64,000 nt of DNA from Cliona cf. orientalis (taxonomy: Eukaryota > Porifera > Demospongiae > Clionaida > Clionaidae): contig OZ005703.1 of NCBI GenBank assembly GCA_963930775.1, positions 6,386,001 through 6,450,000 of the forward strand. The letters run 5' to 3'. Positions 3,169 through 63,250 of the stretch are shown one piece after another. Both the position numbers and the translations under genes were made by a program. The first letter of the stretch is position 1; every line of letters begins with the position of its first letter. The notes beneath the pieces were generated by a model. That model worked only from the letters and a program-made list of their open reading frames with translations. It searched no databases and was not told where the DNA came from.

Positions 3169-4812
3169 ATGGAATGTACAATTGCATTAGTCACTCTGGC
3201 CATAATCTTATGTAACCAGCCAGAGAGAGCACTGGCTGATTATAGATTCATCCGTGAATTAGCTAACTGCAGTGATGATAGCATGTGTCCAACATGGTTC
3301 ACCTGTACCTCACAGAAAAACTGCCACTGTGGATACTGGTACGACGGTGAAATTATGTGCAAGGAAGATCACCACACTTCGTATATTTTCGACTGCTACT
3401 GTATGACTTATGATGATGATACTCAGTCAACATACCTTGGATCATGCTTTTACAATTGTCATAGTAGTGCCAAATATAGTCGCTTACCAGATAATCCAAA
3501 GCAGCTGATAAACAATTCAGTATGCACAGAATTTCACAGAGCAGGCCTATTATGTGGTGATTGTGAAGAGGGGTATAGTCCACTAGTACTCTCATACAAT
3601 CTCAGTTGTGTGAAGTGTCCAGATGGCCATAAAAACTGGTGGAAGTTCATCTTATTTGGATTTGTGCCTCTTACATTCTTCTACTTCATCGTGCTCCTGT
3701 TTAACATCAATGTGACCTCTTCTCATCTTCATGGAATCGTTTGGTTCAGTCAAGTATTATCAATGCCCATTTTCACACGTGGGTTAATGCTTGCTGTCTT
3801 CAAGAGAAAGAAAACATTGAAAGCTGTGAAGGTATTGTTAGTTTTCTACAGTTTTTGGAATCTTGATCTTTTTCGCTCTGTAATTCCTGATATTTGCCTG
3901 AATGTAACTACTCTCCAGGCATTGGCTTTGGATTACCTAATTGCATTTTATCCCTTTCTACTTTTATTAATTTCATATTTCTGTATTAAGCTTTATGATC
4001 GAAAAATCTGTTTAGTTGTTGCAATATGGAAGCCATTTCGGAGTGTGATATCGATCTTCCGTAAGTCTTGGAAGGTTCAGACATCACTTATTGATGCCTT
4101 TGCTTCTTTCTTTTTGCTATCATACGTTAAAATCATGAACGTGACTATGGACCTTCTAGATTCTACTGAAATACATCAGCTTGGCTTAAATATATCTACA
4201 TTAGGAGTTTTCTATTCCCCAACTGTCACATACTTTGGACATGATCATCTGCCATATGCTATTTTTGCACTGACTGTCTGTATTTTATTTGTGATTATCC
4301 CCCCGATTGTTTTAATTCTCTATCCTTTTCGGTGCTTTCAAAAATGTCTTTCCTTTATTCCACTGAAGTGGAACTTGATTCTTCACGGGTTTATTGACAC
4401 ATTTCAAGGCTGCTACAAGGATGGAGCAGAACCTGGAGCATTCGACTGCCGATGGTTTTCAGCGTTAATAATGCTCATCCGACTATTCATAAATTTCATG
4501 TTTGCAACAAACAGTTCATCAAGTACACTCTTCCTGGCCTCTATCATCTTAGTGCTTCTCTATCTGATAGCCATTATCAACATTCAGCCCTATAAGATGA
4601 AAGCTATCCGTTATCCGTCGACAAATTCACAATTTATGGTATTCCTTAGCCTTTGCTTAATTGCATTATTAGGGAGAGCATCTCTTCCAAGTGGAGCTCA
4701 AGGATTGAACTATCACACTATAATGGAAATATTATTTACATCATTTGCATTTGGTCCTCTTTTTTATATTATATTTCTTATTTGTTATTGGCTAGTTTCA
4801 AAGAAAAGATAA
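3169..4812 (+). CDS. Multi-pass membrane protein with Cys-rich ectodomain, subfamily A (547 aa)
   Basis: Single uninterrupted frame. Signal peptide residues 1-23 (ending ERALA). The ectodomain to about residue 155 carries the full 15-cysteine pattern (opening NCSDDSMCPTWFTC), then the juncture CVKCPDGHKNWWKF and 9-10 hydrophobic segments. The loop reads FQGCYKDGAEPGAFDC, with Ala where other subfamilies have Thr. Between the second and third membrane segments it has a basic stretch (KRKKTLK) not seen in subfamilies B-F. The tail is very short (SKKR). It is the only intact A gene here; fragments of close relatives lie at 19283 and 26657. Function unknown; a surface receptor or channel is inference. 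The start is the ATG directly before the signal peptide. Confidence 0.85.
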   Translation: MECTIALVTLAIILCNQPERALADYRFIRELANCSDDSMCPTWFTCTSQKNCHCGYWYDGEIMCKEDHHTSYIFDCYCMTYDDDTQSTYLGSCFYNCHSSAKYSRLPDNPKQLINNSVCTEFHRAGLLCGDCEEGYSPLVLSYNLSCVKCPDGHKNWWKFILFGFVPLTFFYFIVLLFNINVTSSHLHGIVWFSQVLSMPIFTRGLMLAVFKRKKTLKAVKVLLVFYSFWNLDLFRSVIPDICLNVTTLQALALDYLIAFYPFLLLLISYFCIKLYDRKICLVVAIWKPFRSVISIFRKSWKVQTSLIDAFASFFLLSYVKIMNVTMDLLDSTEIHQLGLNISTLGVFYSPTVTYFGHDHLPYAIFALTVCILFVIIPPIVLILYPFRCFQKCLSFIPLKWNLILHGFIDTFQGCYKDGAEPGAFDCRWFSALIMLIRLFINFMFATNSSSSTLFLASIILVLLYLIAIINIQPYKMKAIRYPSTNSQFMVFLSLCLIALLGRASLPSGAQGLNYHTIMEILFTSFAFGPLFYIIFLICYWLVSKKR

Positions 4813-5447
4813 GAATATTTACAATGTCAATATACATGAACGCATTCACACTTGTCTATCGAACAATGAAGAATGAGTCACAACTTAAAGTATTCATGTG
4901 TGTATTATCTCATGCCTACTGCATATAGTAATCGTTTCTATAATATTATAATACGCTGAATTTGCTATACTGTAGTGAAATTTCATGTGTTTATATCGTA
5001 TTCATGCATAATTATTCCATATAAGATCAATTATGAAAGCACTCTATCCTACAAGAATAACACCTGTAAGTGGAACAATTATTTATATGTTTGTTGCAGT
5101 TGCAAACTGATATTTCAAAGGCACACCGCATCTATTATTCATACTCATTAATCTGGAGAGTTCGTACACTGCTTCGAGCAGCTGCTTGCAGTGAGAGGTG
5201 TGGCTTATGCAAATTGCAATGCTGCTTCCATCTGCGCATGTGCACTGTACTAATATTATATAGATAGTGCACAGACTATGTCACTGCATGTACTCTCTGT
5301 GAGGACGTACTGTTAATAGATGATCATGAATACTAGCCACATTATCCCATGATTGTGACATCAAACGTACTTGTTTAGGAGCATAATAATTGTATTATTC
5401 TTCTAGTCAGTTATAGATATATGCACTATAGCCATATATGTATACTT
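4813..5447. other. Intergenic stretch with nothing recognised
   Basis: AT-rich sequence downstream of the A gene. No convincing reading frame, RNA gene or terminal repeat was seen. Confidence 0.4.
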
Positions 5448-5631
5448 GTTGGTAGTTGCTTAGCAACCAAAGTTTTTATAGGCAATTTGCCGGCTATGGG
5501 AAGGGGTTGGGTCATCATGAAGTAGGCCAATGATGAACAGAGGTCAACTACCAACAAAATAGTTATCTGCCAGTATTTGGGGTGCATTCGACCATGCATC
5601 TCATGCACCCCAATTACTGGCAGATAACTAT
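5448..5631. repeat. Two adjoining inverted repeats (fold-back element)
   Basis: GTTGGTAGTTG near 5449 is mirrored by CAACTACCAAC near 5545. Directly next to it, a 29-bp arm at 5559-5587 is mirrored at 5603-5631 with one mismatch and a 15-nt loop. Near-perfect arms suggest a young hairpin element or two nested MITE ends. No coding capacity. Confidence 0.75.
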
Positions 5632-5793
5632 TATATGCAGCCTAGATCTACTGTGGTATAATGCTTAGCTTATTTGCATCAATACACATATACTTACATA
5701 GATGTTACTATGATAGAGAATATGCAAACTGTATGCAATTGAGTCCAATTGTGAAGTATAAACAACCAATACGTTATAGACCCCCACCTGAGC

Positions 5794-5832
5794 TGTATGG
5801 AGTATAATGCATGAGTGCGTTATCCATACAGC
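5794..5832. repeat. Short hairpin CTGTATGGA / TCCATACAG
   Basis: CTGTATGGA and TCCATACAG flank a loop containing TAATGCA and GTGCG. The same core, with longer arms, occurs at 26101-26183, so the two may be relatives of one hairpin family. Confidence 0.5.
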
Positions 5833-6598: not shown

Positions 6599-8278
6599 AT
6601 GACGTCTTGTAAATTACAAAACATAGTACTTTTAGTGTTTATAGTAGCTGGCCAGTCAAACGCTCAAAAATTTGGTAAGCACACCGATGGGGACGCTAAT
6701 TGTAGCGATGGCAGTGTATGTCCAACGTGGTATGTTTGTAATGAACAAAAACGGTGTGACTGTGGTGGTGGCAGTGATTACGACAGCAGGGTTGTGTGTG
6801 ACAATGAGAATCTTCGTTCTGCTGTATTGGACTGCAATTGTGTGACGTATGATATCAAGACAAAGTCCACCAGTGTCGGATCTTGCTATTACAGCTGTGT
6901 GAAACGCAAAGATCCATATACATGGCTGCCAGAAAATCCAGAAACATTAATCAATGGATCAGTCTGCACTAGTTTTAATAGAGCAGGCTTGCTGTGTGGT
7001 GATTGTGCACAAGAACACAGTCCATATGTACTATCGTACAACCTCAGTTGTGTAAGGTGTCCAGATGGCCATAAAAACTGGTGGAAATTTTTCATCGTGG
7101 CATTTGTGCCACTAACATTCTTCTATCTCATTGTGATACTCTTTAACATCAATGTGACATCGACACGCCTTCATGGAGTTGTTTGGTACAGCCAAGCTTT
7201 ATCAATTCCTGTTTTAGTACGTTTAATATTGCCCGTCATCAGTCATAGAGCACCGGCACTACTGACTCCAATGAAGATAACATTCATCTTTTTTAACTTC
7301 TGGAATCTTGACATACTTCGTTCTGTCCTTCCTGACATTTGTCTCAATATAACCACCCTACAGGCCTTAGCTTTGGACTACCTAATTGCACTCTATCCTT
7401 TTCTACTAATACTAGTCTCGTATATTACTATTGAGCTTCATGATAGAAAGTTCTTGTGCACAGTAATCATGTGGAAACCATTTCAGAAACTCCTTTCAAT
7501 ATTTCACACGTCATACGATGTACGTACGTCAGTCATCGACTCGTTTGCTACATTCTTTTTGTTAGCGCATGTCAAGGTTTTGAGTGTCACCACTGATCTT
7601 CTCACTCCTACTATAGTATATCAGTTAGGCTCAAATGCATCCACAGTTGGAGTATACTACTCACCAACTGTCCAATATTTTGGAGATGAGCACCTTCCAT
7701 ATGCCATACTAGCTTTGGTTATCTTTACATTGTTTGTAACCATACCTACAGTTTTACTTTTTCTTTATCCCTTTCAATGCTTTCAGAAATTTCTTTCCCT
7801 CTTTCCCTACAACTGGCACGTTCTCCGTGCCTTTGTTGACTCCTTTCAAGGCTGCTACAAGGATGGGACTGAACCTGGGACATTTGATTGCCGATGGTTT
7901 TCAGCATTTACAATATCAATCCGACTCATGTTTTTTGTCATATTCGGAATAACTAGGTCATGTATGTTCTTTGTATACGCTACCAATATATTAGTTATCC
8001 TTCTCATAGCAATTATCAATATTCAGCCGTACAAGAAGGAATCTGTTCGTCGTCCTTCAACAGATTCCACATTTTTTGCTTTTCTTACTACTGTATTCAT
8101 TGTGCTTCTTGGACAAGAAGTTACCACAACAAGGATTGAAGATATAGCAACTCTTGTAACTGGATTTATACTTGCTTTAATCCCACTTTTCTATACCATT
8201 ATTCTCATTACTTCTTGGCTAGTGACTAGCTATAAAAGGAGGCAGGCTAGCTGTTCCATCATAACCTTGTTGCTTTAA
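6599..8278 (+). CDS. Multi-pass membrane protein with Cys-rich ectodomain, subfamily C (559 aa)
   Basis: Start set at the ATG of MTSCKLQNIVLLVFIVAGQSNAQ's first codon, which gives a clean 23-residue signal peptide and matches the paralogue at 32235; the open frame upstream begins only with TTG. The ectodomain has a Gly-rich insert (GGGSDYDSR) between the fifth and sixth cysteines, and the juncture reads CGDCAQEHSPYV rather than CEEGYSP. Membrane segments follow CVRCPDGHKNWWKF. The FQGCYKDGTEPG loop is intact. The C-terminus is longer and more hydrophobic (RRQASCSIITLLL) than in its paralogue. Intron-free. Same strand as its A and D neighbours. Function unknown. Confidence 0.85.
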   Translation: MTSCKLQNIVLLVFIVAGQSNAQKFGKHTDGDANCSDGSVCPTWYVCNEQKRCDCGGGSDYDSRVVCDNENLRSAVLDCNCVTYDIKTKSTSVGSCYYSCVKRKDPYTWLPENPETLINGSVCTSFNRAGLLCGDCAQEHSPYVLSYNLSCVRCPDGHKNWWKFFIVAFVPLTFFYLIVILFNINVTSTRLHGVVWYSQALSIPVLVRLILPVISHRAPALLTPMKITFIFFNFWNLDILRSVLPDICLNITTLQALALDYLIALYPFLLILVSYITIELHDRKFLCTVIMWKPFQKLLSIFHTSYDVRTSVIDSFATFFLLAHVKVLSVTTDLLTPTIVYQLGSNASTVGVYYSPTVQYFGDEHLPYAILALVIFTLFVTIPTVLLFLYPFQCFQKFLSLFPYNWHVLRAFVDSFQGCYKDGTEPGTFDCRWFSAFTISIRLMFFVIFGITRSCMFFVYATNILVILLIAIINIQPYKKESVRRPSTDSTFFAFLTTVFIVLLGQEVTTTRIEDIATLVTGFILALIPLFYTIILITSWLVTSYKRRQASCSIITLLL

Positions 8279-9159: not shown

Positions 9160-10857
9160 ATGAAACTGCCAAATTGTGGACTAGCAATCCTAGGCCTAGT
9201 TATAGTGCTTAGCCAGTCAAGTTTGGAAATAAATCACACCTTTGAAGCGATTTCACCGACAGAAAATAGGCATTCACACTGCAGCAACGGCAGCGTTTGT
9301 CCAACATGGTTCATCTGTAACTCACAGAATAGCTGTCAGTGTGGAGGTGAACACAATCATGCAGTTGTGTGTGACATTGCAAACAAAAAATCTGCAATTC
9401 TAGACTGCTATTGTGCAACTTACGACAGAAATAGTGAGGCTACCCATCTTGGGCTGTGCTTCTATAACTGCCTAAACGTCAATATAGAAAGTATGGACTA
9501 TGTATATAATAAACTACCACAAAACCCAGAAGAGCTGCTAAACAAATCAGTATGCAGTCACTTTCACAGAACAGGTTTATTGTGTGGTGATTGTGAAGAG
9601 GGATACAGTCCATTTGTACTCTCATACAATCTCAGTTGTGTGAAGTGTCCAGATGGCCATAAAAACTGGTGGAAGTTCATCTTGGTTGGATTTGTGCCTC
9701 TTACATTCTTCTACCTCTTTGTGGTTATCTTTAATATCAATGTGACCTCTTCTCGTCTTCATGGAGTTGTTTGGTTCAGTCAAGCTTTATCCTCTCCCAC
9801 ACTTATCCGTTTAATTATGTCTGCTTTGAGCCATGGTAGTCCACATCTGTTGATAGCAACAAAGACCTATTTAGTATTTTACAGTCTTTGGCACCTTGAT
9901 TTGTTTCGATCTGTCATTCCTGATATTTGCCTCAATGTGACCACCCTTCAAGCATTAGCTCTGGACTACTGCCTTGCACTCTATCCATTTATATTGATAT
10001 TGCTTTCGTACTTGCTAATCGAGCTCCATGATAGACGGTTTGCTGTAGTAGTAATCATATGGAAGCCATTTCGCAAGGTGCTCTCTATATTTCGAAAGTC
10101 CTGGGACATTCGTACATCAATTATTGATTCCTTTGCTACTTTCTTTTTGCTGTCTTATGTCAAAGTGTTGAGTGTCTCGGCTGATCTTTTGATTCCTACT
10201 ACTGTCTACAAACTGGGGTCAAAAGAAGTACAATATGGATTATACTACACTCCCACTGTCCAGTACTTTGGAGATAAACATCTTCCATATGCCATCACAG
10301 CAATCATCATCCTTACACTGTTTGTAAGTATCCCTACACTGATCCTAATTCTTTATCCTTTTCAATTCTTTCAGAAATTTCTTTCCTTCTTTCCATTTAA
10401 CTGGCATGTTCTCCGTGCCTTTGTTGACTCCTTTCAAGGCTGCTATAAAGATGGGACTGAACCTGGGACATTTGATTGCCGATGGTTTTCTGTGACTCCC
10501 CTCCTTATTCGATTACTTTTCTTAATCATATATGGGATGACTTTGTCCATGATATATTTTATATACAGCCTTATCATTTTCATTATTGTTACAGTAGCTA
10601 TAATAAACATACAACCTTTCAAGAAGATTGCTTCCCGCTATTCTTCAATTGATATGGTATTCTACATTTCATTCGGTCTTGCATACACTGTTTGCATTAT
10701 GAGAGACATTGCAGCAACGGAATCGTACCTTTTCAATTTCACCACATTGATCTTACTTTTTCTGACAGCCTTTGTTCCAATTGTATACATAGCTTCTCTT
10801 GTCAGTGTCTGGATTATCTCAAGAATAAGATGGATCAGATATCTGTTTAAAACCTAG
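9160..10857 (+). CDS. Multi-pass membrane protein with Cys-rich ectodomain, subfamily D (565 aa), reference copy
   Basis: The longest frame opens with GTG at 9121; the ATG at 9160 (MKLPNCGLAILG) gives a signal peptide shared by all D copies. Residues 41-163 carry 15 cysteines (41, 47, 53, 59, 61, 71, 83, 85, 100, 104, 132, 142, 145, 160, 163). Juncture CPDGHKNWWKF at 163-173. Hydrophobic segments at about 174-194, 202-222, 231-247, 268-289, 320-340, 376-400, 445-468, 469-485, 497-515 and 526-555. The loop between segments 6 and 7 holds FQGCYKDGTEPG with two cysteines (428, 440). Sequons lie at NGS, NKS, NLS, NVT. The layout resembles a 7TM-plus or channel-like fold, but I cannot assign a named family. 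It faces the D gene ending at 12264 tail to tail. Confidence 0.87.
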   Translation: MKLPNCGLAILGLVIVLSQSSLEINHTFEAISPTENRHSHCSNGSVCPTWFICNSQNSCQCGGEHNHAVVCDIANKKSAILDCYCATYDRNSEATHLGLCFYNCLNVNIESMDYVYNKLPQNPEELLNKSVCSHFHRTGLLCGDCEEGYSPFVLSYNLSCVKCPDGHKNWWKFILVGFVPLTFFYLFVVIFNINVTSSRLHGVVWFSQALSSPTLIRLIMSALSHGSPHLLIATKTYLVFYSLWHLDLFRSVIPDICLNVTTLQALALDYCLALYPFILILLSYLLIELHDRRFAVVVIIWKPFRKVLSIFRKSWDIRTSIIDSFATFFLLSYVKVLSVSADLLIPTTVYKLGSKEVQYGLYYTPTVQYFGDKHLPYAITAIIILTLFVSIPTLILILYPFQFFQKFLSFFPFNWHVLRAFVDSFQGCYKDGTEPGTFDCRWFSVTPLLIRLLFLIIYGMTLSMIYFIYSLIIFIIVTVAIINIQPFKKIASRYSSIDMVFYISFGLAYTVCIMRDIAATESYLFNFTTLILLFLTAFVPIVYIASLVSVWIISRIRWIRYLFKT

Positions 10858-12263: not shown

Positions 12264-13952
12264 CTATACTTTAAAGGTATTTGTAATCCTTGAGATAATC
12301 CAGACACCAATAAGAAAAGCTGTGTACACGATTGGAACAAAGGCTGTCAGAAAAAGTAGTACCATTGTGATGATGTTGAAGAAGTAGGATTCCATTACTG
12401 CAATGTCTCTCATAATACAACCAGTGTACGCAAGACTGAGTAGAATGTAGAATACCATATCAGTTGAAGAAAAGTAGGAAGCAATGTTCTTGAAAGGTTG
12501 TATGTTTATTACAGCTATCGTAAAGATAGTGAAAGCAATAAGGCCATATACAAAGTACATCATGGACAAAGTTATCGCATGTGTGATAAAGAAAAATAAT
12601 CTGATTACAAGGATAATTGCTGAAAACCATCGGCAGTCAAATGTCCCAGGTTCAGTCCCATCCTTGAAGCAGCCTTGAAAGGAATCAACAAAGGCATGGA
12701 GAAAGTGCCAGTTGAATGGAAAGAGGGAAAGAATCTTTTGAAAGAATTGAAAAGGATAAAGAATTAGGATCAGTGTAGGGATACTTACAAACAGTGTAAG
12801 GATGATGATTGCTGTGACGGCATATGGAAGATGTTCATTCCCAAAGTAGTGGACAGTGGGGGTGTAGTATAACCCATACTGAACTTTACTTGACCCCAGT
12901 TTATAGATGGTAGTAGGAATCAAAAGATCAGCAGAAACACTCAACACTTTAATGTAAGATAATAGGAAGAATGTAGAAAAGGAGTCAATAATTGATGTAC
13001 GAATATCCCAGGACTTTCGAAATATAGAAAGCACCTTGCGAAATGGCTTGCATATTGTAACTATTGCAGTATACTGTCGGTCATGAAACTCTATAAATAA
13101 GTATGAAAGAATGATTAGGACGAATGGATGGAGTGCAAGGGAGTAATCCAGAGCTAATGCCTGAAGGGTGGTCACATCTAGGCATATATCAGGAATGACG
13201 GATCGAAACAAATCAAGATTCCAAAAACTATAAAATACTAAGAAGGTCTTTGTTGCTATCAACAGATGTGGACTACCATGGCTCAAAGCAGACATAATTA
13301 AACGTACGAATGCAGGCATTGATAAAGCTTGGCTAAACCAAACGACTCCGTGAAGACGAGAAGATGTCACATTGATGTTAAAGATCACCACAAAGAGGTA
13401 GAAGAATGTAAGAGGCACAAATCCGACCAAGATGAACCTCCACCAGTTTTTATGGCCATCTGGGCACTTCACACAACTGAGATTGTATGAGAGTACAAGT
13501 GGACTGTATCCCTCTTCACAATCACCACACAATAAACCTGTTCTGTGAAAGTGACTGCATACTGATTTGTTTAGCAGCTCTTCTGGTTTTTGTGGTAGTT
13601 CACTGTATACGTAGTCCATTTTTTTTTCTGGATTATTGTTTAGACAGTTATAAAAGCACTGTCCAAGATAAGTAGCCGCACTGTTTCTGTCGTAAGTTGC
13701 ATAATAGCAGTCTAGAATTACAGATTTTTTGTTTGTAATATCACACACAATTGCATGATTGTGTTCACCTCCACACTGGCAGCTGTTCTGTGAGTTACAG
13801 ATGAACCATGTTGGACAAATACTGCCATTGCTGCAGTATGAATGCCCATTTTCTGTCAGTGAAATCACTTCAAAGGTGTAGTTTGGTTCCTGACTTGACG
13901 GGCTAAGCACTGTAACTAGGCCTAGGATCACTATTCCATTTGGCAGCTTCAT
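12264..13952 (-). CDS. Multi-pass membrane protein, subfamily D (562 aa)
   Basis: ATG of MKLPNGIVILG at 13952; the frame extends to a GTG at 13979 that has no support. Full length, no intron. Odd point: the eighth ectodomain cysteine is lost (LDCYYATYD instead of LDCYCATYD), leaving its likely disulphide partner free. The loop reads FQGCFKDGTEPG. The tail ends RITNTFKV, shared only with the copy at 20913. Close paralogue of that copy by segmental duplication and convergent with the D gene at 9160. Confidence 0.85.
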   Translation of the reverse strand: MKLPNGIVILGLVTVLSPSSQEPNYTFEVISLTENGHSYCSNGSICPTWFICNSQNSCQCGGEHNHAIVCDITNKKSVILDCYYATYDRNSAATYLGQCFYNCLNNNPEKKMDYVYSELPQKPEELLNKSVCSHFHRTGLLCGDCEEGYSPLVLSYNLSCVKCPDGHKNWWRFILVGFVPLTFFYLFVVIFNINVTSSRLHGVVWFSQALSMPAFVRLIMSALSHGSPHLLIATKTFLVFYSFWNLDLFRSVIPDICLDVTTLQALALDYSLALHPFVLIILSYLFIEFHDRQYTAIVTICKPFRKVLSIFRKSWDIRTSIIDSFSTFFLLSYIKVLSVSADLLIPTTIYKLGSSKVQYGLYYTPTVHYFGNEHLPYAVTAIIILTLFVSIPTLILILYPFQFFQKILSLFPFNWHFLHAFVDSFQGCFKDGTEPGTFDCRWFSAIILVIRLFFFITHAITLSMMYFVYGLIAFTIFTIAVINIQPFKNIASYFSSTDMVFYILLSLAYTGCIMRDIAVMESYFFNIITMVLLFLTAFVPIVYTAFLIGVWIISRITNTFKV

Positions 13953-15259: not shown

Positions 15260-15269
15260 ATATATGCGC

Positions 15270-18599: not shown

Positions 18600-19282
18600 T
18601 TGAGCCACTTGAATACAACAGGGATAGTTATTGAAATTACTGTATCTCTTGTGTAATGAACAAACTTCATAAACAGTCAATAATATATTACAAGTATAAA
18701 AAATAATGAAATTGAAGGATAATCACTATACATTCCAGGACCTGCTTTTCTCAATTATTGTACACCCGTTGATGCCATGGCAACCCATTGCACCAGGTGC
18801 TATCCCTACAATCTCACTTATGTACTTGTTGCCCCTGCCGTATCCCTACTTTATTCTTCGATTTCATTCTTTCTTATACTTGTTACTGTTACTTTTATTC
18901 CTCTTTAATGTAATTCATTGATAGATGATTTGTCCAATAACTCTTAAATTCGTTGTCAGTGGTGCAGTGGCATAATAATATAGGTATCCAGGGTGATGGT
19001 TCGAATTTGTGTGTGCGTGCAAAAGTTGTAGCCACACCTTTCATTAGTTTGTCGTTAATTGTACCGCAGCCACACTTGTAGGTGAGGCCACCCAACTTGG
19101 GCTGTGCTTGTGCGGCCCCTCAGCTCTCAGCATATAAACAACCAGTTTAATAACTAGCTTCGCTCCAATTAGTGGACCATCATACAGCCTATGATCTCTC
19201 TACAACTAATCATGAAATGACCAGAAAGATGATGGAATAAATGCTGATAAAAATTCAAAAATTGACACAATCATATAATTTT
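18600..19282 (-). promoter_or_regulatory. Conserved 5' flank of subfamily B, copy 1
   Basis: Shares long stretches with the flanks at 25817-26620 and 34598-35250: GTTGATGCCATGGCAACCCA, GCACCAGGTGCTATCCCTAC, GTGCAGTGGCATAATAATAT and AAAAGTTGTAGCCACACC. It was duplicated with the gene and probably includes the promoter; no defined element can be named. Confidence 0.6.
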
Positions 19283-19494
19283 TTTGCATTGACTGTCTTT
19301 ATTTTATTTGTGATTGTCCCCCCAATTGTTTTAATTCTCTATCCTTTTTGGTACTTCAGAAACTTCTTTCCTTTATTCCACGGAGATGGAACTTAATTCT
19401 TCATGGGTTTATCGACAAATTTCAAGGCTGCTACAAGGATGGAGCAGAACCTGGAGTATTTGATTGCCAATGGTTTTCAGCGTTAACATTGCTG
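19283..19494 (+). pseudogene. Internal fragment of a subfamily A gene
   Basis: Matches 4264-4476 of the A gene: LILYPF-type segment, LLSFIPRRWNLILHGFID, FQGCYKDGAEPG and a DCQWFSA motif. It stops abruptly at a junction with repeat R1 (the sequence continues ACACATATCAAAG as at 2842). Opposite strand to the neighbouring B gene. Clearly a recombination remnant. Confidence 0.8.
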
Positions 19495-50095: not shown

Positions 50096-51280
50096 CTAAC
50101 TGGTATTATTTTTAATACACCTCATTCTTATTCTTAAAATAATCCAGATATTACTAGTACTAATAAATATTGCTATGTATACAATTGGAATACAGGCTGT
50201 CAAAAAAGGAAGATATATAGAGAAGACTTTTCCTATTGTTATAACGTCTCTTGAAATCGCAACAATGAAAGCTAAGGAAAGTAATAAGATCATTGCTTCT
50301 GGCGTTTGTGGCAGTTTATTATGAATAGGATCCACTTTTTTAATGATGTTTATGCATGCATAAACTAGAGTTAATCGTGCCATGCCAACGCACACGGCCC
50401 ATCTCCAGAGTGCCATCATGCAGGGCGCATGCGCACATAAGTATAGACCTCATGCTCGTTCCAGTTAACGCACATCCCTGCTCTGCAATGCAGAAGAAGC
50501 TCCGTGGTGAAAAAATGCCCTTCCCACCCACCCAGACAACCAAAACATCATGCACTCACCAGCTAGTACACGCACACACATACATACACACACATACACT
50601 AGCATAGTAGGGGGAGCTGACTCGCAGTTGACCATTTTCTGTGACTTAATGGTCATACCAGCATCTTTGTTCTTGTAATGCTGGATGTCACCACCCTGGT
50701 ACTGATTGGCACTCAACTTCACGGTCGGGACTCCCACGCTGGCTCTGTGGCCAGTTGGTACCTGACTTGAGGTTGGGACTTACGAGTGTGCATAATAGTT
50801 TGTGCAATTGAACACCTATATGTAGGTGAACAATGGCAAGAACAGGTACTATCTATCTAGTATGTGCGCTGTAAACATTTCACATCGGTTTGTGTAATGA
50901 TTAATTACTGTACCTGTATGATTATAATATTCATGTATACAAGTTGGCATGAAACAGCTATTAAATGCTATTACAGTTGTAGAAGCACAGTCCTAGATAG
51001 GTGGATCCAGTCTGTCTATCATAGGTCACACTGTAGCAGTCTAGAACAGCTGCCTCTCCACGTTCAATGTCACACACCACTTCATAGCTGTGTTCATTTC
51101 CACACTCACAAATGTTCTGTGAGTTACAAATGAACCATGTTGGACATGCACTATCATTATTACAGTGAGGATATCTAGCTTCTCTCGATTTAATAGTGCC
51201 GACTTTGGTGTATCTCTCTTGACTTGACTGACTATAAGCACTGTAACTAACATCAAGATAGATAGTAGACCTTTTGACAT
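50096..51280 (-). pseudogene. Subfamily E gene, internally deleted and interrupted
   Basis: The N-terminal part (51280 to about 50969) has the signal peptide and cysteines up to YNCN, with a 2-bp TA gain near 51233 shifting the frame inside the signal peptide. About 620 bp of unrelated sequence (50346-50968) splits the ectodomain. The piece KKVDPIHNKLPQTPEA then joins directly to the ninth membrane segment (ILLLSLAFIVAISRD), so all of the central membrane domain is gone. The C-terminus is altered (RMRCIKNNTS). Confidence 0.85.
50346..50968. other. Unidentified ~620-bp insertion in an E pseudogene
   Basis: GC-richer than its surroundings, with an ACACAC microsatellite at 50570-50600. The minus strand at 50640-50750 has a normal-looking open stretch (VKLSANQYQGGDIQHYKN...) that could be an exon. 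No terminal inverted repeats or target duplication are evident, so its origin (transposon, captured exon or rearrangement) is open. Confidence 0.45.
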
Positions 51281-51314
51281 GTTCGTGTTTATGTTGAACA
51301 GTAGCTACATGCAA

Positions 51315-52093: not shown

Positions 52094-53767
52094 CTAGTGT
52101 AATTTAACACACCTCGTTTTTGAAATAATCCAGAAACTAATAAATGTTCCTATATATACAATTGGAATACTGGTGGCCAATGAAGGAAGAAGTATATTAA
52201 ATATAATAGAGGAGAGTTTTGCAACATCTCTTGAAATTATAGCAATGAAGATTAAACTTAGTAGAATGTAGAACACTGTGTCCATTATAGAATAGCGGTA
52301 AGCAATTTTCTTATATGGTTGTATATTTATTGCAACTATTGAGAGGGTAACGATAGTAATAAGACCATATATAAAGAACATCATCGACAAAGTCATCCCG
52401 TATATGATAAAAAACAGTAGTCGAATCAGATGGATGAGGGTTGAAACCCATCGACAGTCTAATGTCCCAGGTTCAATCCCGTCCTTATAGCAGCCTTGAA
52501 AGGAGTCAACAAAGGCGTGGAGAAAGTGCCAATTGAATGGAAAATAGGAAAGGAACTTTTGAAAGAATTGAAAAGGGTAAAGAATAAAGATTATTGTAGG
52601 GATACTCACAAACAATGTAAGGATAATGATTGCTGTGATGGCATATGGAAGGTGTTCATCTCCAAAGTATTTGACAGTGGGGGTGTAGAATAGCCCAAAT
52701 CGAACTTTGTTTGACCCCAATTCATATATGGTAGTAGGAATCAAAATATCAGTAGAGACAGTCAACACTTTGACATAAGACAGCAAAAAGAAAGTAGCAA
52801 AGGAATCAATAATTGATGTACGAATGTCCCATGACTTTCGAAACACGGAAAGCACCTTGCGGAGTGGCTTCCATATGAGTACTATTACAGTATACTGTCG
52901 ATCGTGGAGCTCAATAAGTAAATATGAAAGAATTATTAATACGAATGGATAAAGTGCAAGAAAGTAGTCCAGAGCTAATGCTTGAAGTGTGGTCACATTG
53001 AGACAAATATCAGGAATGACGGAACGAAACAAGTCAAGATTCCAAAAACTGTAAAACACTATGAATGTCTTTCCTGCTATTAGCAGATGTGGATTACGAT
53101 GGCTCAATTCAAACATGACCTGACGGATAAATTGAGGCGTAGTGATGACTTGACTGAACCAGACTACCCCATGAAGGCGAGAAGAGGTCACATTGATGTT
53201 AAAGATGACCACAACGAGGTAGAAGAATGTGAGCGGTACAGATCCAGCTAGAATGAACTTCCACCAGTTTTTATGGCCATCTGGACACTTCACGCAACTA
53301 AGATTGTATGAGAGTACAAATGGACTGTATCCCTCTTCACAATCACCACATAGTAGACCTGTTCTGTGAAAGCTAGCACAGACTGAATTGTTGAGCAGCG
53401 CTTCTGGCGTTTGTGGCAATTTGTTATGAATATGATCCACTTTTTTAATGTTATCACAGTTGTAGAAGCACAGTCCAAGATAGGTGGATCCAGTCTGTTT
53501 ATCATAGGTCACACAGTGGCAGTCTAGAATAGCTGCCTCTCCACGTTCAATGTCACACACCACTTCATAGCTGTGTTCATTTCCACACTCACAAATGTTC
53601 TGTGAGTTACAAATGAACCATGTTGGACATGCACTATCATGATTACAGTGAGGATATCTAACTTCTCTCGATTTAATAGTGCCGACTTTGGTGTATCTCC
53701 CTTGACTTGACTGACTAAGCACTGTAACTAACATCAAGATAGATAGTAGACCTTTTGACATGTTCAT
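52094..53767 (-). CDS. Multi-pass membrane protein with Cys-rich ectodomain, subfamily E (557 aa)
   Basis: ATG at 53767 (MNMSKGLLSILMLVTVLSQ), the consensus E start; the TTG extension to 53806 is unsupported. Complete ectodomain with the SREVRYPHC linker. The loop reads KDGIEPGTLDCRWVSTL (two changes from consensus, cysteines kept). VKYFGDEHLPYA replaces VQYFGNEHLPYA. Tail SKTRCVKLH. Uninterrupted. Last intact unit of the array; all units to its right are damaged. Confidence 0.86.
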   Translation of the reverse strand: MNMSKGLLSILMLVTVLSQSSQGRYTKVGTIKSREVRYPHCNHDSACPTWFICNSQNICECGNEHSYEVVCDIERGEAAILDCHCVTYDKQTGSTYLGLCFYNCDNIKKVDHIHNKLPQTPEALLNNSVCASFHRTGLLCGDCEEGYSPFVLSYNLSCVKCPDGHKNWWKFILAGSVPLTFFYLVVVIFNINVTSSRLHGVVWFSQVITTPQFIRQVMFELSHRNPHLLIAGKTFIVFYSFWNLDLFRSVIPDICLNVTTLQALALDYFLALYPFVLIILSYLLIELHDRQYTVIVLIWKPLRKVLSVFRKSWDIRTSIIDSFATFFLLSYVKVLTVSTDILIPTTIYELGSNKVRFGLFYTPTVKYFGDEHLPYAITAIIILTLFVSIPTIIFILYPFQFFQKFLSYFPFNWHFLHAFVDSFQGCYKDGIEPGTLDCRWVSTLIHLIRLLFFIIYGMTLSMMFFIYGLITIVTLSIVAINIQPYKKIAYRYSIMDTVFYILLSLIFIAIISRDVAKLSSIIFNILLPSLATSIPIVYIGTFISFWIISKTRCVKLH

Positions 53768-54325: not shown

Positions 54326-55660
54326 ACCCTAATTCGTATATAGTAGTAGGAATCAAAAGATCAGCCGAGACGCTCAACACTTTGATATAAGACAGTACGT
54401 ACAAAAGAAAGTAGCAAAGGAATCAATAATTGATGTACAAATGTTCCATGACTTTCGAAACATAGAAAGCTAGCACCTTGCGGAATGGCTTCCATATGAG
54501 TACTATTGCAGTATACCGTCTATCATGGAGCTCAATAAGTAAGTATGAAAGAAGTATTAATACAAATGGATAAAGTGCAAGAAAGTAGTCCAGAGCTAAT
54601 GCTTGAAGAGTGGTCACATCGAGACAAACATCAGAAAGGACAGAACGAAACAAATTAAGGTTCCAAAAACTGTTAAACACTATGAGTGTTCGTCTTCACT
54701 GCTATCATCAGATGTGGATTACGATGGCTCAATTCAGACATCATCAGACAGATAAATGCAGGCATAGTGATGATTTGACTGAACCAGACTACCCCATAAA
54801 GGCAAGAAGACGTCACATTGATGTTAAAGATGCAGTGGCGTAGCTAGAGCTAGGAGTCTGGTAGGGCACAATATGTTAAATGGTCGCTAAGTACTAGTTT
54901 GACCACACCCCAAATTAATATTGCTGAATCTCAATCTTTAGCATACAATCTGGATTATTTCTGCCCTATTTTCATAGAATTGAAGGGCTGACACAATCAG
55001 TGGTTAGCTAAGTAGTAAGCATTACTAGAACAAAGTTGGTCGGGCCTGGCCCTACTAGGCCCACCCCTGGCTACGCCACTGTAAAGATGACCACAAAGAG
55101 GTAGAAGAATGTGAGTGGCACAGATCCAGCTAGAATAAACTTCCACCAGTTTTTATGGCCATCTGGACACCTTACACAACTGAGATTGTATGAGTGTACA
55201 AATGGACTGTATCCCTCTTCACAATCGCCACATAGTAGATCCGTTCTGTGAAAGCTAGTACAGACTGACTTATTGAGCAATGCTTTGGATTTTTGAGGCA
55301 ATTTGTGAAGAATATTATCCATTTTTTGTTTGTTATTACTGTTGTAGAAGCACTGTCCAAGATAGGTGGATCCAGTCTGTCTATCATAGGTCACACAGTG
55401 GCAGTCTAGAACAGCTGCCTCTCCACGTTCAATATCACACACCACTTCATAGCTGTGTTCATTTCCACACTCACAACTGTTCTATGAGTTACAAATGAAC
55501 CATGTTGGACATGCACTATCATTATTGCAGTGAGGATATCTAACTTCTCTCGATTTAATAGTGCTGACTTTGGTGTATCTCCCTTGACTTTACTGGCTAA
55601 GCACTGTAACTATAACATCAAGATAGATAGCAGACCTTTTGATATGTTTATGTTAGCCAT
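54326..55660 (-). pseudogene. Subfamily E gene, truncated and split by a hAT-type element
   Basis: The N-terminal half is recognisable: signal peptide (the MNMSKG start codons are lost, an ATG remains at 55660), a TAG stop at 55482-55484 in the NSQNS stretch, then the regular ectodomain and juncture. A 249-bp transposon interrupts the first membrane segment region. Homology ends at ELG in the loop before segment six, where spacer sequence takes over, so the last third is deleted. Two further short insertions (GTACGTAC at 54395, GCTAGC at 54469) break the frame. Confidence 0.88.
54833..55081. mobile_element. hAT-type non-autonomous element with 8-bp target duplication
   Basis: Ends CAGTGGCGTAGC and GCTACGCCACTG are perfect inverted repeats. 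TAAAGATG stands directly outside both ends (54825-54832 and 55082-55089), and removing one copy restores the sister-gene sequence (AATATTAAAGATGACCAC type). An 8-bp duplication is the hallmark of hAT transposition. 249 bp, no coding capacity. Confidence 0.92.
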
Positions 55661-55989
55661 AATGTTACAATTCGCTTACTAACAGCCGTTGAATAACATG
55701 ATAATATTATTATTGTACCTGGTTGTAAGTAAATTATGTTTCATTTTTAATATTATTCATGTACTAAACTGTGGGTACAAAATAATATGGATCAGTACCT
55801 TGTATAACTTTGCTGGTGATTTTAATGTAGGAATGTGCTCTATTACATGATACTGAAAGCAAAGTTAGTAACGATACGGAAGCAAGTACAAATTGTTGTT
55901 ATAATTTTGCACATGTGCACACACACAATAACCGAAATGTTGAGTACAGCAGTGAATTGTATGTTCACAAAACCGATAACCTAATTTAG
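55661..55989. other. E-array spacer
   Basis: Intergenic repeat blocks (AACATGATAATATTATTATT, GGATCAGTACCTTGTATAAC). No R1 in this spacer. Confidence 0.6.
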
Positions 55990-57653
55990 TGTACTTTAAT
56001 GCACCTCATTCTTAAAACAATCCAGAAACTAATAAATATTGTTATATACAATTGGAATACCGGCAGTCAATGAAGGAAAAAGTGAATTAAATATAATGGA
56101 GGAGAGTTTTGCAACATCTCTTGAAATCAGAGCAATGCAGATTAAGCTTGGTAGAATATAGAATACTGTGTCCATGATAGAATAGCAGCAAGCAACCTTC
56201 TTATATGGTTGTATATTTATCGCAACTATTGAGAGGGTAAGTAAAGCAATAAGACAATATATTAAGAACATCATCGACAAAGTCATCCCGTATATATGAT
56301 AAAAAACAGTAGTCGAATTAGATGGATGAGGGTTGAAAACCATCGGCAGTCAAATGTCCCAGGTTCAGTCCCATCCTTATAGCAGCCTTGAAAGGAGTCA
56401 ACAAAGACGTGGAGAAAGTGCCAATTAAATGGAAAATAGGAAAGGAACTTTTGAAAAAGTTGAAAAGGGTAAAGAATAAAGATTATTGTAGGGATTCCCA
56501 CAAACAATGTAAGGATAATGATTGCTGTGATGGCGTATGGAAGATGTTCGTATCCAAAGTACTGGACAGTGGGGATATAGTATAATCCATATTGTACTTC
56601 TTTTGACCCCAGTTTGTAGATAGTAGTAGGAATCAAAAGATCAGCAGAGACACTCAACACTTTGATATAAGATAGCAAAAAGAAAGTAGCAAAGGAATCA
56701 ATAATTGATGTACGAATGTCCCATGACTTTCGAAACACAGAAAGCACCTTGTGAAACGGCTTCCATATAATTACTACCACGGCAAACCGTCTATCATGGA
56801 GCTCAATAAGTAAGTATGAAAGAAGTATTAATAAAAATGGATAGAGTGCAAGGAAGTAGTCCAGAGCTAATGCTTGAAGTGTGGGCACATTGAGGCAAAT
56901 ATCAGGAATGACAGATCGAAACAAATCAAGATTCCAAAAACTGTAAAACATTGTGAATGTCTTTGCTGCTATCAACAGATGTGGATTACGATGGCTCAAT
57001 TCAAACATTATCAGACGGATAAATGCAGGCATAGTGATGACTTGACTGAACCAGACTACTCCATGAAGGCGAGAAGAGGTCACATTGATATTAAAGATGA
57101 CCACAAAGAAATAGAAGAATGTTAGGGGTACAAATCCAACCAAGATGAACTTCCACCAGTTTTTATGGCCATCTGGACACTTTATACAGCTGAGATTGTA
57201 TGAGAGTACAAATGGACTGTATCCCTCGTCACAATCGCCACATAGTAGACCTGTTCTGTGAAAGCTAGTACATACTGATTTATTGAGCAGCGCTTCTGGT
57301 GTTTGTGGTAGTTTATTATGAATATGATCCACTTTTTTAACGTCGTTACAGTTGTAGAAGCACAGTCCAAGATAGGTGGATCCAGTCTGTCTATCATAGG
57401 TCACACAGTGGCAGTCTAGAACAGCTGCCTCTCCACGTTCAATGTCACACACCACTTCATAGCTGTGTTCATTTCCACACTCACAACTGTTCTGTGAGTT
57501 ACAAATGAATTATGTTGGACATGCAGTATCACTATTACAGTGAGGATATCTAACTCCTCTCGATTTAATAGTGCTGAATTTGGTGTATCTCCCTTGACTT
57601 GACTGGCTAAGCACTATAATTAATATCAAAATAGATATTAAACCTTTTGACAT
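55990..57653 (-). pseudogene. Subfamily E gene with one stop and two small frame changes
   Basis: Begins at the ATG at 57653 (MSKGLIS-like). The Trp of CPTWF is a stop (TAA, near 57509), after which 390 codons are open from MVCDIERG. A 2-bp TA gain near 56293 shifts the frame between the seventh segment and its neighbour, and a 2-bp loss near 56040 removes the usual end. Otherwise full length, with all cysteines after the stop and FQGCYKDGTEPG. A recent casualty. Confidence 0.85.
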
Positions 57654-57978
57654 GTTCATAATGTTACTTATCGCTCACTATAACAGCCGTGGAACAACAT
57701 GTTGTACCTGGCTATATTTTAAGTTAATTATGATTAGACTATGCAGATATACAGGTCAGTGTCTTGTATAAAGTTACTAGTGATCGTTGTGTTTTAATAT
57801 AGGAATGTGTTCTGTTACGTGACACTGAAAGCTTAAAACAATTAAGTACAAATTGTTATTATAATACATGTGCAAACATGCATACACACAATGTCATGTG
57901 CACACACACACAATAACACAAAAATGTTTAATACAACAGCGAATTGTATGTTCACAAAACCTATAACCCCAACTTGAT
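57654..57978. other. E-array spacer
   Basis: Intergenic repeat with CACACAATGTCATGTGCACA and the GTTCACAAAACC end. No gene. Confidence 0.6.
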
Positions 57979-59226
57979 CTAGTGTAATTTAACACACCTC
58001 GTTTTTGAAATTATCCAGAAACTAATAAATGTTGCTATATATACAATTGGAATACTGCCAGTTAATAAAGGGAAAAGAGTATTAAATATAATAGAGGAGA
58101 GTTTTGCAACATCTCTTGAAATTATAGCAATGAACATTAAGCTTAGTAGAATGTAGAACACTGTGTCCATTATAGAATAGCGGTAAGCAATTTTCTTATA
58201 TGGTTGTATATTTATTGCAACTATTGAAAGGGTAAGGAAAGCAATAAGACCATATATACAGAACATCATCGACAAAGTCATCCCGTATAAGATAAAAAAC
58301 AATAGTCGAATCAAATGGATGAGGGTTGAAAACCATCGATAGTCTAATGTCCCAGGTTCAGTCCCGTCCTTATAGCAGCCTTGAAAGGAGTCAACAAAGG
58401 CGTGGAGATAGTGCCAATTGAATGGAAAATAGGAAAGGAAGTTTTGAAAGAATTGAAAAGGGTAAAGAATAAAGATTATTGTAGGGATACTCACAAACAA
58501 TGTAAGGATGATGATTGCTGTGATGGCATATGGAAGATGTTCATTTCCAAAGTATTGGACAGTGGGGGTGTAGTATAGCCCAAATCGAACTTTATTTGAC
58601 CTCAATTCATATATGGTAGTAGGAACTAAAAGATCAGTAGAGACACTCAACACTTTGACATAAGACAGCAAAAAGAAAGTAGCAAAGGAATCAATAATTG
58701 ATGTGCGAATGTCCCATGACTTTCGAAATATAGATAGCACCTTGCGGAATGGCTTCCATATGAGTACTATTGCAGTATACTGTCGATCGTGGAGCTCAAT
58801 AAGTAAGTACGAAAGAAGTATTAACACAAATGGATAAAGTGCAAGGAAGTAGTCCAGAGCTAATGCTTGAAGGGTGGTCACATTGAGGCAAATATCAGGA
58901 ATGACAGAACGAAACAAGTCAAGATTCCAAAAACTGTAAAACACTGTGAATGTCTTCGCTGCTATCAACAGATGTGGATTACGATGGCTCAATTCAAACA
59001 TTATCAGACGGATAAATGCAGGCATAGTGATGACTTGACTGAACCAGACTACTCCATGTAGACGAGAAGACGTCACATTGATTTTAAAGATGACCACAAA
59101 GAAGTAGAAGAATGTGAGCGGCATAAATCCAACCAAGATGAACTTCCACCAGTTCTTATGGCCATCTGGATACGGATATATAAAGTCATATAGGTCAGTA
59201 CCTTGTATAAATTTGCTATTGGTCAT
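57979..59226 (-). pseudogene. Subfamily E gene lacking the whole ectodomain (415 aa open)
   Basis: Homology to E genes stops at about 59170, just upstream of PDGHKNWWKF, where the spacer sequence (GTCATATAGGTCAGTACC) takes over. An ATG at 59226 in the spacer happens to give an open frame (MTNSKFIQGTDLYDF) into the membrane domain. It therefore lacks signal peptide and all ectodomain cysteines. The membrane part has no stops; the loop reads TLDYRWFST with the second cysteine lost. It may be non-functional, or make a bare membrane domain. Confidence 0.75.
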
Positions 59227-59408: not shown

Positions 59409-61104
59409 CTAGTGTAATTTAATGCACCTCATTCTTGAAACAATCCAGAAACTAATAAATGTTGTTATATATACAATTGGAATACTGCCAGTTAATAAAG
59501 GAAAAAGAGTATTAAATATAATAGAGGAGAGTTTTGCAACATCTCTTGAAATTATAGCAATGAACATTAAGCTTAGTATATAGAATGTAGAACACTGTGT
59601 CCATTATAGAATAGCGGTAAGCAATTTTTTTATATGGTTGTATATTTATCGCAACTATTGCAAGGGTAAGGAAAGCAATAAGACCATATATACAGAACAT
59701 CATCGACAAAGTCATCCCGTATAAGACAAAAAACAGTAGTCGAATCAGATGGATGAGGGTTAAAAACCATCGACAGTCTAATGTCCCAGGTTCAGTCCCG
59801 TCCTCATAGCAGCCTTGAAAGGAGTCAACAAAGGCATGGAGATAGTGCCAGTTGAATGGAAAATAGGAAAGGAATTTTTGAAAAAATTAAAAAGGGTAAA
59901 GAATAAAGATTATTGAAGGGATACTCACAAACAATGTAAGGATGATGATTGCTGTGATGGCATATGGAAGATGTTCATTTCCAAAGTATTGGACGGTGGG
60001 GGTGTAGAATAGCCCAAATCGAACTTTTTTGGACCCCAATTCGTATATGGTAGTAGGAATCAAAAGATCAGCCGAGACACTCAACACTTTGATATAAGAC
60101 AGTAAAAAGAAAGTAGCAAAGGAATCAATAATTGATGTACGAATGTCCCATGACTTTCGAAACACAGAAAGCACCTTGTGAAATGGCATCCATATGAGTA
60201 CTATTGCAGTATACTGTCGATCGTGGAGCTCAATAAGTAAGTATGAAAAAAATATTAACACCAATGGATAGAGTGCAAGAAAGTAGTCCAGAGATAATGC
60301 TTGAAGTGTGGTCACATTGAGACAAATATCAGGAATGACAGAACGAAACAAGTCAAGGTTCCAAAAACTGTAAAATACCATTAGTATCTTTACTGCTATT
60401 AGCAGATGTGGACTACGATGGCTCAATTCAAACATGACCAGACGGATAAACTGAGGCATAGATATGACTTGACTAAACCAGACTACCCCATGAAGACGAG
60501 AAAATGTCACATTGATGTTAAAGACGATGACAAAGAAATAGAAGAACGTTAGGGGTACAGATCTAGCTAAGATGAATTTCCACCAGTTTTTATGACCATC
60601 TGGACACTTCACACAGCTGAAATTGTATGAGAGTACAAATGGACTGTATCCCTCTTCACAATAGCCACATAGTAGACCCGTTCTGCATGTGAAAGCTAAC
60701 ACAGACTGATTTATTGAGCAGCGCTTCTGGCATTTGTGGCAATTTATTGTGAATATGATCCACTTTTTTTACGTTGTTACAGTTGTAGAAGCACTGTCCA
60801 AGATAGGTCGATCCAGTCTGTCTTAGCTATCATAGGTCACACAGTGGCAGTCTAGAACAGCTGCCTCTCCACGTTCAATGTCACACACGACTTCATAGCT
60901 GTGTTCATTTCCACACTCACAAATGTTCTGTGAGTTACAAATGAACCATGTTGGACATGCACTATCATTATTACAGTGAGGATATCTAACTTCTCTCGAT
61001 TTAATAGTGCCGACTTTGGTGTATCTCCCTTGACTTGACTGGCTAAGCACTGTAACTAACATCAAGATAGATAGTAGGCCTTTTGACATGTTCATGTTAG
61101 CCAT
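59409..61104 (-). pseudogene. Subfamily E gene with several small lesions
   Basis: Full-length outline from MANMNMSKGLLS (ATG 61104) to a decayed end. Lesions seen against sisters: 5 extra bases near 60824 (making TAGCTA), 4 extra at 60685-60688 (TGCATG), a Gln-to-stop change near 59888 after FILYPF, and 4 extra at 59577-59580 (TATATA). The 271-codon central frame (60702-59887) is otherwise regular. Closest to the 42865 gene in the N-terminal half (NFS sequon, PQFIRLVMFEL) and to other E copies later, suggesting a recombinant. Confidence 0.85.
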
Positions 61105-61114
61105 TACAATTCGC

Positions 61115-61148
<34 letters not shown>

Positions 61149-61572
61149 TGAAAAAAATGAATAGTGAACGTCACTACTTGGTAGTGATATCTGTGGCAAA
61201 ATGTAGTGACGGTCATTTTTTACATATAGTCTATAACAGCAATGGAACAACATGATAATATTATTGTACCTGGCTGTAGCTTACTAATTAATTATGCTTC
61301 GTTTATTTTAATATAATAAATTATACGTATATACAAAGTAATATAGGTCAGTATCTTGTATAAAGTTGCTATAGTGATCGTTGTATTTTAATATAGGAAT
61401 GTGTTCTGTAACATGACACTGAAAGCTAATAATACGGAAACAAGTACAAATTGTTATTATAATACACGTGCACACATGCATACACACAATGTCATGTGCA
61501 CACACACACACAATGACAAAAATGTTCAGTACAGCAGTGAATTGTATGTTCACAAAACCCATAACCTATAAT
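61105..61572. other. E-array spacer with TA microsatellite and tiny MITE
   Basis: 61117-61145 is a TA run; 61146-61224 is the second copy of the 82-bp MITE; 61235-61560 is the intergenic repeat. Sister of the spacer at 44548-45020. Confidence 0.65.
61146..61224. mobile_element. Tiny MITE, copy 2
   Basis: Same sequence plan as 44595-44676 (AATAGTGAACGTCACTAC, GTAGTGACGGTCATTTTTTA). Its left end has merged into a TA microsatellite. Confidence 0.7.
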
Positions 61573-63250
61573 CTAGTGTAATTTAACAGACCTCATTTTT
61601 GAAATAATCCAGAAACTAATAAATATTGCTATATATACAATTGGAACACTGCCGGTCAATGAAGGAAGAAGTATATTAAATATTATAGAGGAGCGTTTTG
61701 CGACAAGTCTCGAAATTAGAGCAATGAAGATTAAGCTTAGTAGAATGTAGAACACTGTGTCCATTATAGAATAGCGGCAAGCAACCTTCTTATATGGTTG
61801 TATATTTATCGCAACTATTGAGAGGGTAAGGAAAGCAATAAGACCATATATAAGGAACATTATTGACAAAGTCATCCCGTATAAGATAAAAGACAGTAGT
61901 CGAATCAGATGGATGAGGGTTGAAAACCATCGGCAGTCAAATGTCCCAGGCTCAGTTCCGTCCTTATAGCAGCCTTGAAAGGAGTCAACAAAGGCGTGGA
62001 GAAAGTGCCAATTGAATGAAAAATAGGAAAGGAACTTTTGAAAGAATTGAAAAGGGTAAAGAATAAAGATTATTGTAGGGATACTTACAAACAATGTAAG
62101 GATGATGATTGCTGTGATGGCGTATGGAAGATGTTCATTTCCAAAGTACTGGACAGTGGGGGTATAGTATAATCCATATTGTACTTCTTTTGACCCCAGT
62201 TTGTAGATAGTAGTATAGGAATCAAAAGATCAGCAGAGACACTCAACACTTTGATATAAGATAGCAAAAAGAAAGTAGCAAAGGAATCGATAATTGATGT
62301 ACGAATGTCCCAGGACTTTCGAAATACAGAAAGCACATTGTGAAACGGCTTCCATATGATTACTACCACAGCAAACCGTCTATCATGGAGCTCAATAAGT
62401 AAGTATGAAAGAAGTATCAATAAAAATGGATAAAGTGCAAGGAAGTAGTCCAGGGCTAATGCTTGAAGGGTGGTCACATTGAGGCAAATATCAGGAATGA
62501 CAGAACGAAATAAGTCAAGATTCCAAAAACTGTAAAACACTGTGAATGTCTTCGCTGCTATCAACAGATGTGGATTACGATGGCTCAATTCAGACATCAT
62601 CAGACGGATAAATGCAGGCATAGTGATGACTTGACTGAACCAGACTACTCCATGAAGACGAGAAGACGTCACATTGATTTTAAAGATGACCACAAAGAGG
62701 TAGAAGAATGTGAGTGGCACAGATCCGGCTAAGATGAACTTCCACCAGTTCTTATGGCCATCTGGACACTTCACACAACTGAGATTGTATGAGAGTACAA
62801 ATGGACTGTATCCCTCTTCACAATCACCACATAGTAGACCCGTTCTGTGAAAGCTAGCACAGACTGATTTATTGAGCAGTACTTCTGGCTTTTGTGGCAG
62901 TTTGTGATGAATATGATCCACTTTTTTGATGCTAATACAGTTATAGAAGCATAGTCCAAGATAGGTGGATCCAGTCCGTCTATCATAGGTCACACAGTGG
63001 CAGTCTAGAACAGCTGCTCTCTACGTTCAATGTCACACACCACTTCATAGCTGTGTTCATTTCCACACTCACAAATGTTCTGTGAGTTACAAATGAACCA
63101 TGTTGGACATGCACTATCCTTATGGCAGTGAGGATATCTAACTTCTCTCAATTTAATAGTGCCGACTTTGGTGTATCTCCCTTGACTTGCTGACTTACTA
63201 AGCACTATGACTAACATCAAGATAGATAATAAATCTTTTGACATGTTCAT
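61573..63250 (-). pseudogene. Subfamily E gene with two small frame changes
   Basis: Starts MNMSKDLLSILMLVIVLS at 63250. One base is missing near 63016 (GCTGCTCTCTACG against GCTGCCTCTCCACG), shifting the frame after VVCDIER. Two extra bases (TA) at about 62214 shift it again after ADLLIP. Between and after these, all landmarks are regular: complete cysteines, PDGHKNWWKF, FQGCYKDGTEPG, end RSVKLH. No stop codon of its own otherwise. Confidence 0.86.

Follow-up and report, generated by a model that had tools for sequence, protein, structure and literature searches.

What function is served by a family of cysteine-rich, multi-pass membrane proteins that has been locally amplified in the genome of the sponge Cliona cf. 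orientalis? The family is encoded in a 64,000-nt stretch of contig OZ005703.1 (assembly GCA_963930775.1, positions 6,386,001 to 6,450,000; hereafter the window, to whose first letter all coordinates refer). An initial annotation, made by a model from the sequence alone, had described the locus as a possible sensory repertoire. The array spans positions 3169-63250 and contains 15 uninterrupted complete open reading frames (ORFs) of 547-576 amino acids (aa), as that annotation had counted; it is real and not a chance pattern.

Copies of the array and their duplication

The window contains 18 ORFs of at least 250 aa, namely the 15 complete members, two broken copies, and a neighbouring gene (35-1612) outside the family. 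Beyond the intact copies, tblastn with the 15 intact proteins as queries located six long broken copies and seven fragments. The initial annotation had listed seven broken copies and at least five fragments; the two totals agree, and the classing of such remnants depends in part on judgement. Of the intact copies, the first three are on the forward strand and the remaining 12 on the reverse strand; copies 9160 and 12264 (named here by their first coordinate) are arranged tail to tail, forming an inverted repeat (1339 nt, 87%). The members are given below, with intact copies taken from the ORF list, subfamilies (a to f) from the tree, and remnants from tblastn unless otherwise stated.

3169-4812, forward: intact copy, 547 aa, subfamily f (single)
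6599-8278, forward: intact copy, 559 aa, subfamily d
9160-10857, forward: intact copy, 565 aa, subfamily b
12264-13952, reverse: intact copy, 562 aa, subfamily b, one ectodomain Cys missing (also from the alignment)
16893-18599, reverse: intact copy, 568 aa, subfamily c
19274-19494, forward: fragment, C-terminal half, in two frames
19718-19984, forward: fragment, end of ectodomain to first transmembrane segment (TM1)
20913-22643, reverse: intact copy, 576 aa, subfamily b
23346-23501, reverse: fragment, region of the signal peptide
24125-25816, reverse: intact copy, 563 aa, subfamily c
26657-27190, forward: fragment, C-terminal third with one stop, closest to copy 3169
27388-29097, reverse: intact copy, 569 aa, subfamily b
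30562-32268, reverse: intact copy, 568 aa, subfamily d
32897-34597, reverse: intact copy, 566 aa, subfamily c
35336-35525, reverse: fragment in two short stretches, of 51% and 80% identity
36773-38455, reverse: intact copy, 560 aa, subfamily c
40245-41906, reverse: intact copy, 553 aa, subfamily e (single)
42865-44547, reverse: intact copy, 560 aa, subfamily a
45024-46695, reverse: broken copy, single frame change
47522-49192, reverse: intact copy, 556 aa, subfamily a
50105-50383, reverse: fragment, C-terminal end beside an ectodomain scrap
50964-51283, reverse: fragment, N-terminal end, in two frames
52094-53767, reverse: intact copy, 557 aa, subfamily a
54327-55643, reverse: broken copy lacking the C-terminal part, with stops and frame changes
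55989-57659, reverse: broken copy, frame changes and one stop
57982-59169, reverse: broken copy, transmembrane part open, ectodomain missing (ORF list and tblastn)
59412-61089, reverse: broken copy, three stops and one frame change
61576-63250, reverse: broken copy, two frame changes

The tree recovered the six subfamilies that had been claimed, with sizes of 3, 4, 4, 2, 1, and 1. The claim that the genes lack introns holds for their coding part, and an untranslated 5' exon may still exist. Four trees built from separate regions mostly kept the subfamilies, apart from copy 27388, which left subfamily b for a in the tree of residues 164-345 (0.83), and copy 3169. The latter grouped with a and b in the ectodomain tree (0.95) and the 164-345 tree (1.0), stood outside nearly all others in the 346-441 tree, and was placed beside c and d by the tree of the last part (0.94), a shifting position that hints at a mosaic gene or sequence exchange.

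How the array grew can be read from the flanks, which were compared for 20 copies over 700 nt per side. Among the 15 intact copies, 13 matched another copy upstream and nine downstream, although upstream the matches are often short and, where copies are densely packed, some of the compared windows reach the next copy; copies 3169 and 40245 had no flank match. Long matches outside this dense part include one upstream of copies 16893 and 32897 (82% over 685 columns) and one downstream of copies 47522 and 52094 (91% over 698 columns). Because flanks were duplicated along with most genes, the likeliest reading is that the array expands by duplication of DNA segments and not by retroposition. A mobile element or retroposed gene family, which would owe its intron-free state to retroposition, could account for the intron-free coding parts and the scattered fragments, but the duplicated flanks make such an origin highly improbable and it was set aside. 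A search for inverted repeats (at least 40 nt, within 3000 nt) found six pairs, all inside family copies; no separate search was made for target-site duplications or long terminal direct repeats.

Protein anatomy and selective constraint

Each intact copy starts with a hydrophobic segment predicted to be a signal peptide, followed by 15 Cys between residues 41 and 163 (numbering follows copy 9160). This Cys-rich region is divided into residues 41-104 and a CxxC...CxxC stub (132-163) that adjoins TM1, the motif CPDGHKNWWKF coming immediately before TM1. Two sequons of the ectodomain, N128 and N157, occur in all 15 copies. The initial annotation had extended the 15-Cys ectodomain, CPDGHKNWWKF, and FQGCYKDGTEPG to every copy, which is slightly too strong: the full Cys set is found in 14 of the 15 (copy 12264 lacks the Cys of column 85), and the two motifs are exact in 13 and 10 copies, respectively.

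The same annotation counted 9-10 hydrophobic segments. After the signal peptide, the Kyte-Doolittle family mean gave eight strong segments, and the GES scale at a low threshold gave 11, the extra ones being 203-221, 228-246, and 407-425. Reading both together, we predict from the sequence that the proteins most likely cross the membrane nine times, with the N-terminus outside, the C-terminus inside, and one crossing within 198-246. Nine passes fit best because they reconcile an outside N-terminus with the basic loops 290-320 and 483-499 and the basic tail (on average 6.3 K/R vs. 1.9 D/E in loop 290-320, and 3.3 vs. 0 in the tail). Eight passes would place the basic tail outside, while eleven would also place it inside. 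No recognised signalling domain is present in the tail, which is short.

The family is under purifying selection, with a median pairwise dN/dS of 0.195 in the ectodomain and 0.201 in the membrane part. These values leave out pairs with zero or saturated dN/dS, so that 94 of 105 pairs were counted for the ectodomain, all 105 for the membrane part, and 45 of 105 for the signal peptide. The ectodomain maximum was 0.61, and in no counted pair outside the signal peptide did dN/dS exceed 1, hence no diversifying selection was seen on the ectodomain and an arms-race ectodomain is rejected; in the signal peptide, 13% of the 45 counted pairs exceeded 1.

These values bear on a second explanation, that the family mediates self/non-self or microbe recognition at the cell surface with the ectodomain as the recognition part. 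The tandem array, the many broken copies, the Cys-rich ectodomains, and the wandering of copy 3169 between region trees would all suit such a role, but the ectodomain lacks diversifying selection, and most of the protein is a membrane core, which would be unusual for pure recognition. We therefore regard a recognition family as unlikely.

Constraint is uneven along the protein (region-wise pN/pS, uncorrected). Between subfamilies, the ratio was lowest in TM1 and TM4 (0.17), the FQG loop (0.20), TM3 (0.21), and the CxxC stub (0.23), and higher (0.41-0.73) in TM2, TM6-TM9, the last outer loop, and the tail. Within subfamilies, TM4 (0.12), TM1 (0.14), the FQG loop (0.20), and the first Cys part and TM3 (both 0.21) were the most constrained, followed by the CxxC stub (0.27), TM2 and TM6-TM9 (0.36-0.47), the last outer loop (0.69), and the tail (0.72). 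Separately, between-subfamily pS was lowest at codons ~121-180 and 401-440 (0.46-0.51, vs. 0.52-0.82 in the other 40-codon windows), which could reflect gene conversion or another constraint.

Searches for relatives and possible function

Judged from sequence matches, no curated family in the collections searched (Pfam, NCBIfam, PHROGs, and PDB) claims these proteins. The profile searches covered 17 members; the Pfam scan listed matches up to E ≤ 10, although the HMMER filters drop most matches above E ~0.1. Pfam listed six families (best E 0.011), with no 7tm, TRP, or other receptor or transporter profile among them; NCBIfam listed three, each in one member (best E 0.012), and no transporter profile; PHROGs listed six, the best being an unspecified membrane protein in three of the 17 members (E 0.005). 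Neither the family profile nor a single copy matched any PDB chain at E ≤ 10. Scans of IMG/VR and GTDB contigs that used the family alignment (seeded from one or two short conserved peptides) found no relative, nor did tblastn of copy 40245 alone against plasmids and phages; because these collections represent viruses, prokaryotes, and their plasmids, this negative result does not bear on animals. Among the literature matches listed and the abstract openings available, no description of the family was found, and the available passages of PMC4302439, PMC12716839, and PMC7003098 describe no such proteins.

The one recurrent Pfam match is weak and concerns DUF7630 (PF24633), found in nine of the 17 full members (best E 0.011) and, when ectodomains were searched alone, in 10 of 15 (best E 0.0024). 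It was not matched by any of ten shuffled ectodomains (made from six of the 15, residues 31 on). Two of these shuffles did match other families, at E 0.067 and E 0.18, which marks isolated matches near E 0.1 as noise; the remaining Pfam families were each matched by one or two members, e.g., the adenylyl cyclase N-terminal region (one member, E 0.25). A 58-aa piece of the computed consensus reached E 0.00096 (19.7 bits). All DUF7630 scores shown (8.2-19.7 bits; first real ectodomain 16.4) fall below the 27-bit Pfam cut-off, as must those of the remaining members, since their E-values are 0.0024 or weaker. The C-terminal part of DUF7630 resembles the CxxC...CxxC stub before TM1, where the match ends at the last profile position (in three copies, one ectodomain, and two consensus pieces), while the array proteins cover only part of its 45 positions. 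A search for DUF7630 in one virus record and 14 control genomes gave no match and is uninformative.

The same searches bear on two further explanations. Clusters of GPCR chemoreceptors typically take the form of tandem single-exon genes interspersed with pseudogenes, so canonical chemoreceptors coupling to G proteins might be expected here. However, no 7tm profile was listed for the 17 members at E ≤ 10, the family profile matched no GPCR chain in PDB, and hydropathy gave at least eight strong passes after the signal peptide instead of seven; canonical GPCR membership is not supported and appears very unlikely. A stronger though still rather unlikely candidate is a family of membrane transporters or lipid-handling proteins that was duplicated to raise dosage or widen substrate range and bears the ectodomain as a cap. 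It would agree with the roughly nine passes, the lack of a recognised signalling domain, and purifying selection with no excess in the ectodomain. On the other hand, no transporter profile appeared in the Pfam or NCBIfam lists of the 17 members, and receptor repertoires more typically show so many dead copies and as many as six divergent subfamilies.

Ahead of the transporter and recognition readings, we tentatively favour a locally duplicating family of surface proteins with a single coding exon, in which a ligand sensor would act through a membrane core that works as a channel or receptor. The Cys region would face outside and bind the ligand, and the conserved CPDGHKNWWKF joint would relay the change to the membrane core. 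As no other part of the protein could signal, the output would be ion flow or coupling via conserved loops, namely FQGCYKDGTEPG and the HDR..WKPF loop. Specificity or gating would be diversified by the second and the last four membrane segments, which vary more. The array proteins may further represent the short-ectodomain form of a wider animal family, in which a similar module of Cys region and membrane passes comes after an ectodomain of beta-helix repeats. We count in favour of the sensor or channel reading the repeat protein adjoining the array, the conserved frames with their low dN/dS, the hydropathy and loop charges, the two invariant ectodomain sequons, the uneven constraint along the protein, the DUF7630-like stub, and the duplicated flanks.

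Several results weigh against this sensor or channel reading. Besides the Pfam, NCBIfam, and PDB searches and the lack of diversifying selection on the ectodomain described above, the entire family consensus matched DUF7630 only at E 3.7, and no beta-helix relative with this membrane core was found in our searches. In the topology, sequon N194 (14 of 15 copies) sits in a loop modelled as inside, and loop 398-442, also placed inside, shows no positive excess (3.4 K/R, 3.9 D/E). The comparison of predicted structures with known folds proposed in the initial annotation gave low-confidence AlphaFold models (mean pLDDT 41.7 with 17 alignment rows, and 45.8 for the membrane part only with 20 rows), and Foldseek with the first model returned 63 matches at E ≤ 10 but none at E ≤ 0.001. 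As both models are of low confidence, no fold supports a receptor, channel, or transporter, although their helices roughly match the hydropathy pattern.

The initial suggestion of a sensory repertoire thus holds in part. It agrees with the tandem array, single coding exon, many pseudogenes, divergent subfamilies, and conserved frame, while sensory function itself lacks direct support and is reached from the tandem arrangement by analogy; a chemoreceptor repertoire is possible. A bolder version, which we consider doubtful, is that the nine-pass, 15-Cys, intron-free arrays form an environmental-sensing repertoire of beta-helix-family origin, on a fold unrelated to GPCRs, TRP channels, and insect-type receptors. 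If these proteins are sensors, an animal that has no neurons would rely on a class of receptors to which the curated libraries searched contain no recognised relative, and this would bear on the origins of animal chemosensation or microbe sensing. Even otherwise, they constitute a conserved, actively duplicating membrane family unnamed by Pfam and NCBIfam, and the 15 intact members of the window suffice to build a profile.

Neighbouring features and known systems

Head-to-head with the first array copy lies a gene outside the family:

35-1612, reverse: neighbouring gene, predicted to be secreted, with Chlam_PMP (beta-helix type) repeats (Pfam scan)

It has a signal-like start and five Chlam_PMP stretches (E 1.4e-4, 22.2 bits; cut-off 20.6), and gave no PDB match at E ≤ 1. 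Its reading frame stops close to the window edge, which may mean that the gene is broken, that it is spliced, or that the window truncates it. Chlam_PMP repeats were found in this neighbour only and were not listed for any of the 17 array members; likewise, a search of all six frames found a cluster of GG[AVG] motifs only here.

Between this gene and the array, about 219 bases at 2010-2228 are enclosed by inverted terminal motifs of the TTTCCGGCTATACGGT type, and the whole looks like a small inverted-repeat element. Allowing up to three mismatches, the motif also occurs at 47232 (three mismatches) and 51808 (one), giving four matches in total vs. a mean of 0 in 100 shuffles. One match of the terminal motif in IMG/VR was rejected as a chance match within a bacterial peptidase-like gene, and GTDB gave none. 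A tRNA-Ser gene (anticodon aga; 42627-42702, forward strand) is located between two array genes.

Among known systems, fungal TRP-like/Flc channels (PF06011) have a signal peptide, an ectodomain, and about nine passes, an overall layout like that of the array proteins; however, neither PF06011 nor any ion-channel model was listed for the 17 members at E ≤ 10, and no PDB chain matched. With tandem chemoreceptor clusters, the array shares the single coding exon, tandem duplicates, subfamilies, and many pseudogenes, while no relation in sequence or fold was found in the Pfam and PDB searches. A third comparison is with animal proteins, sponge and cnidarian ones among them, in which beta-helix repeats precede a Cys stub and a multi-pass core; PANTHER names such proteins G protein-coupled receptor-related (PTHR11319), and they are putative kin of the array. 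Although the array members lack such repeats, these animal proteins have their Cys stub, first TM, and last loops in a similar order.

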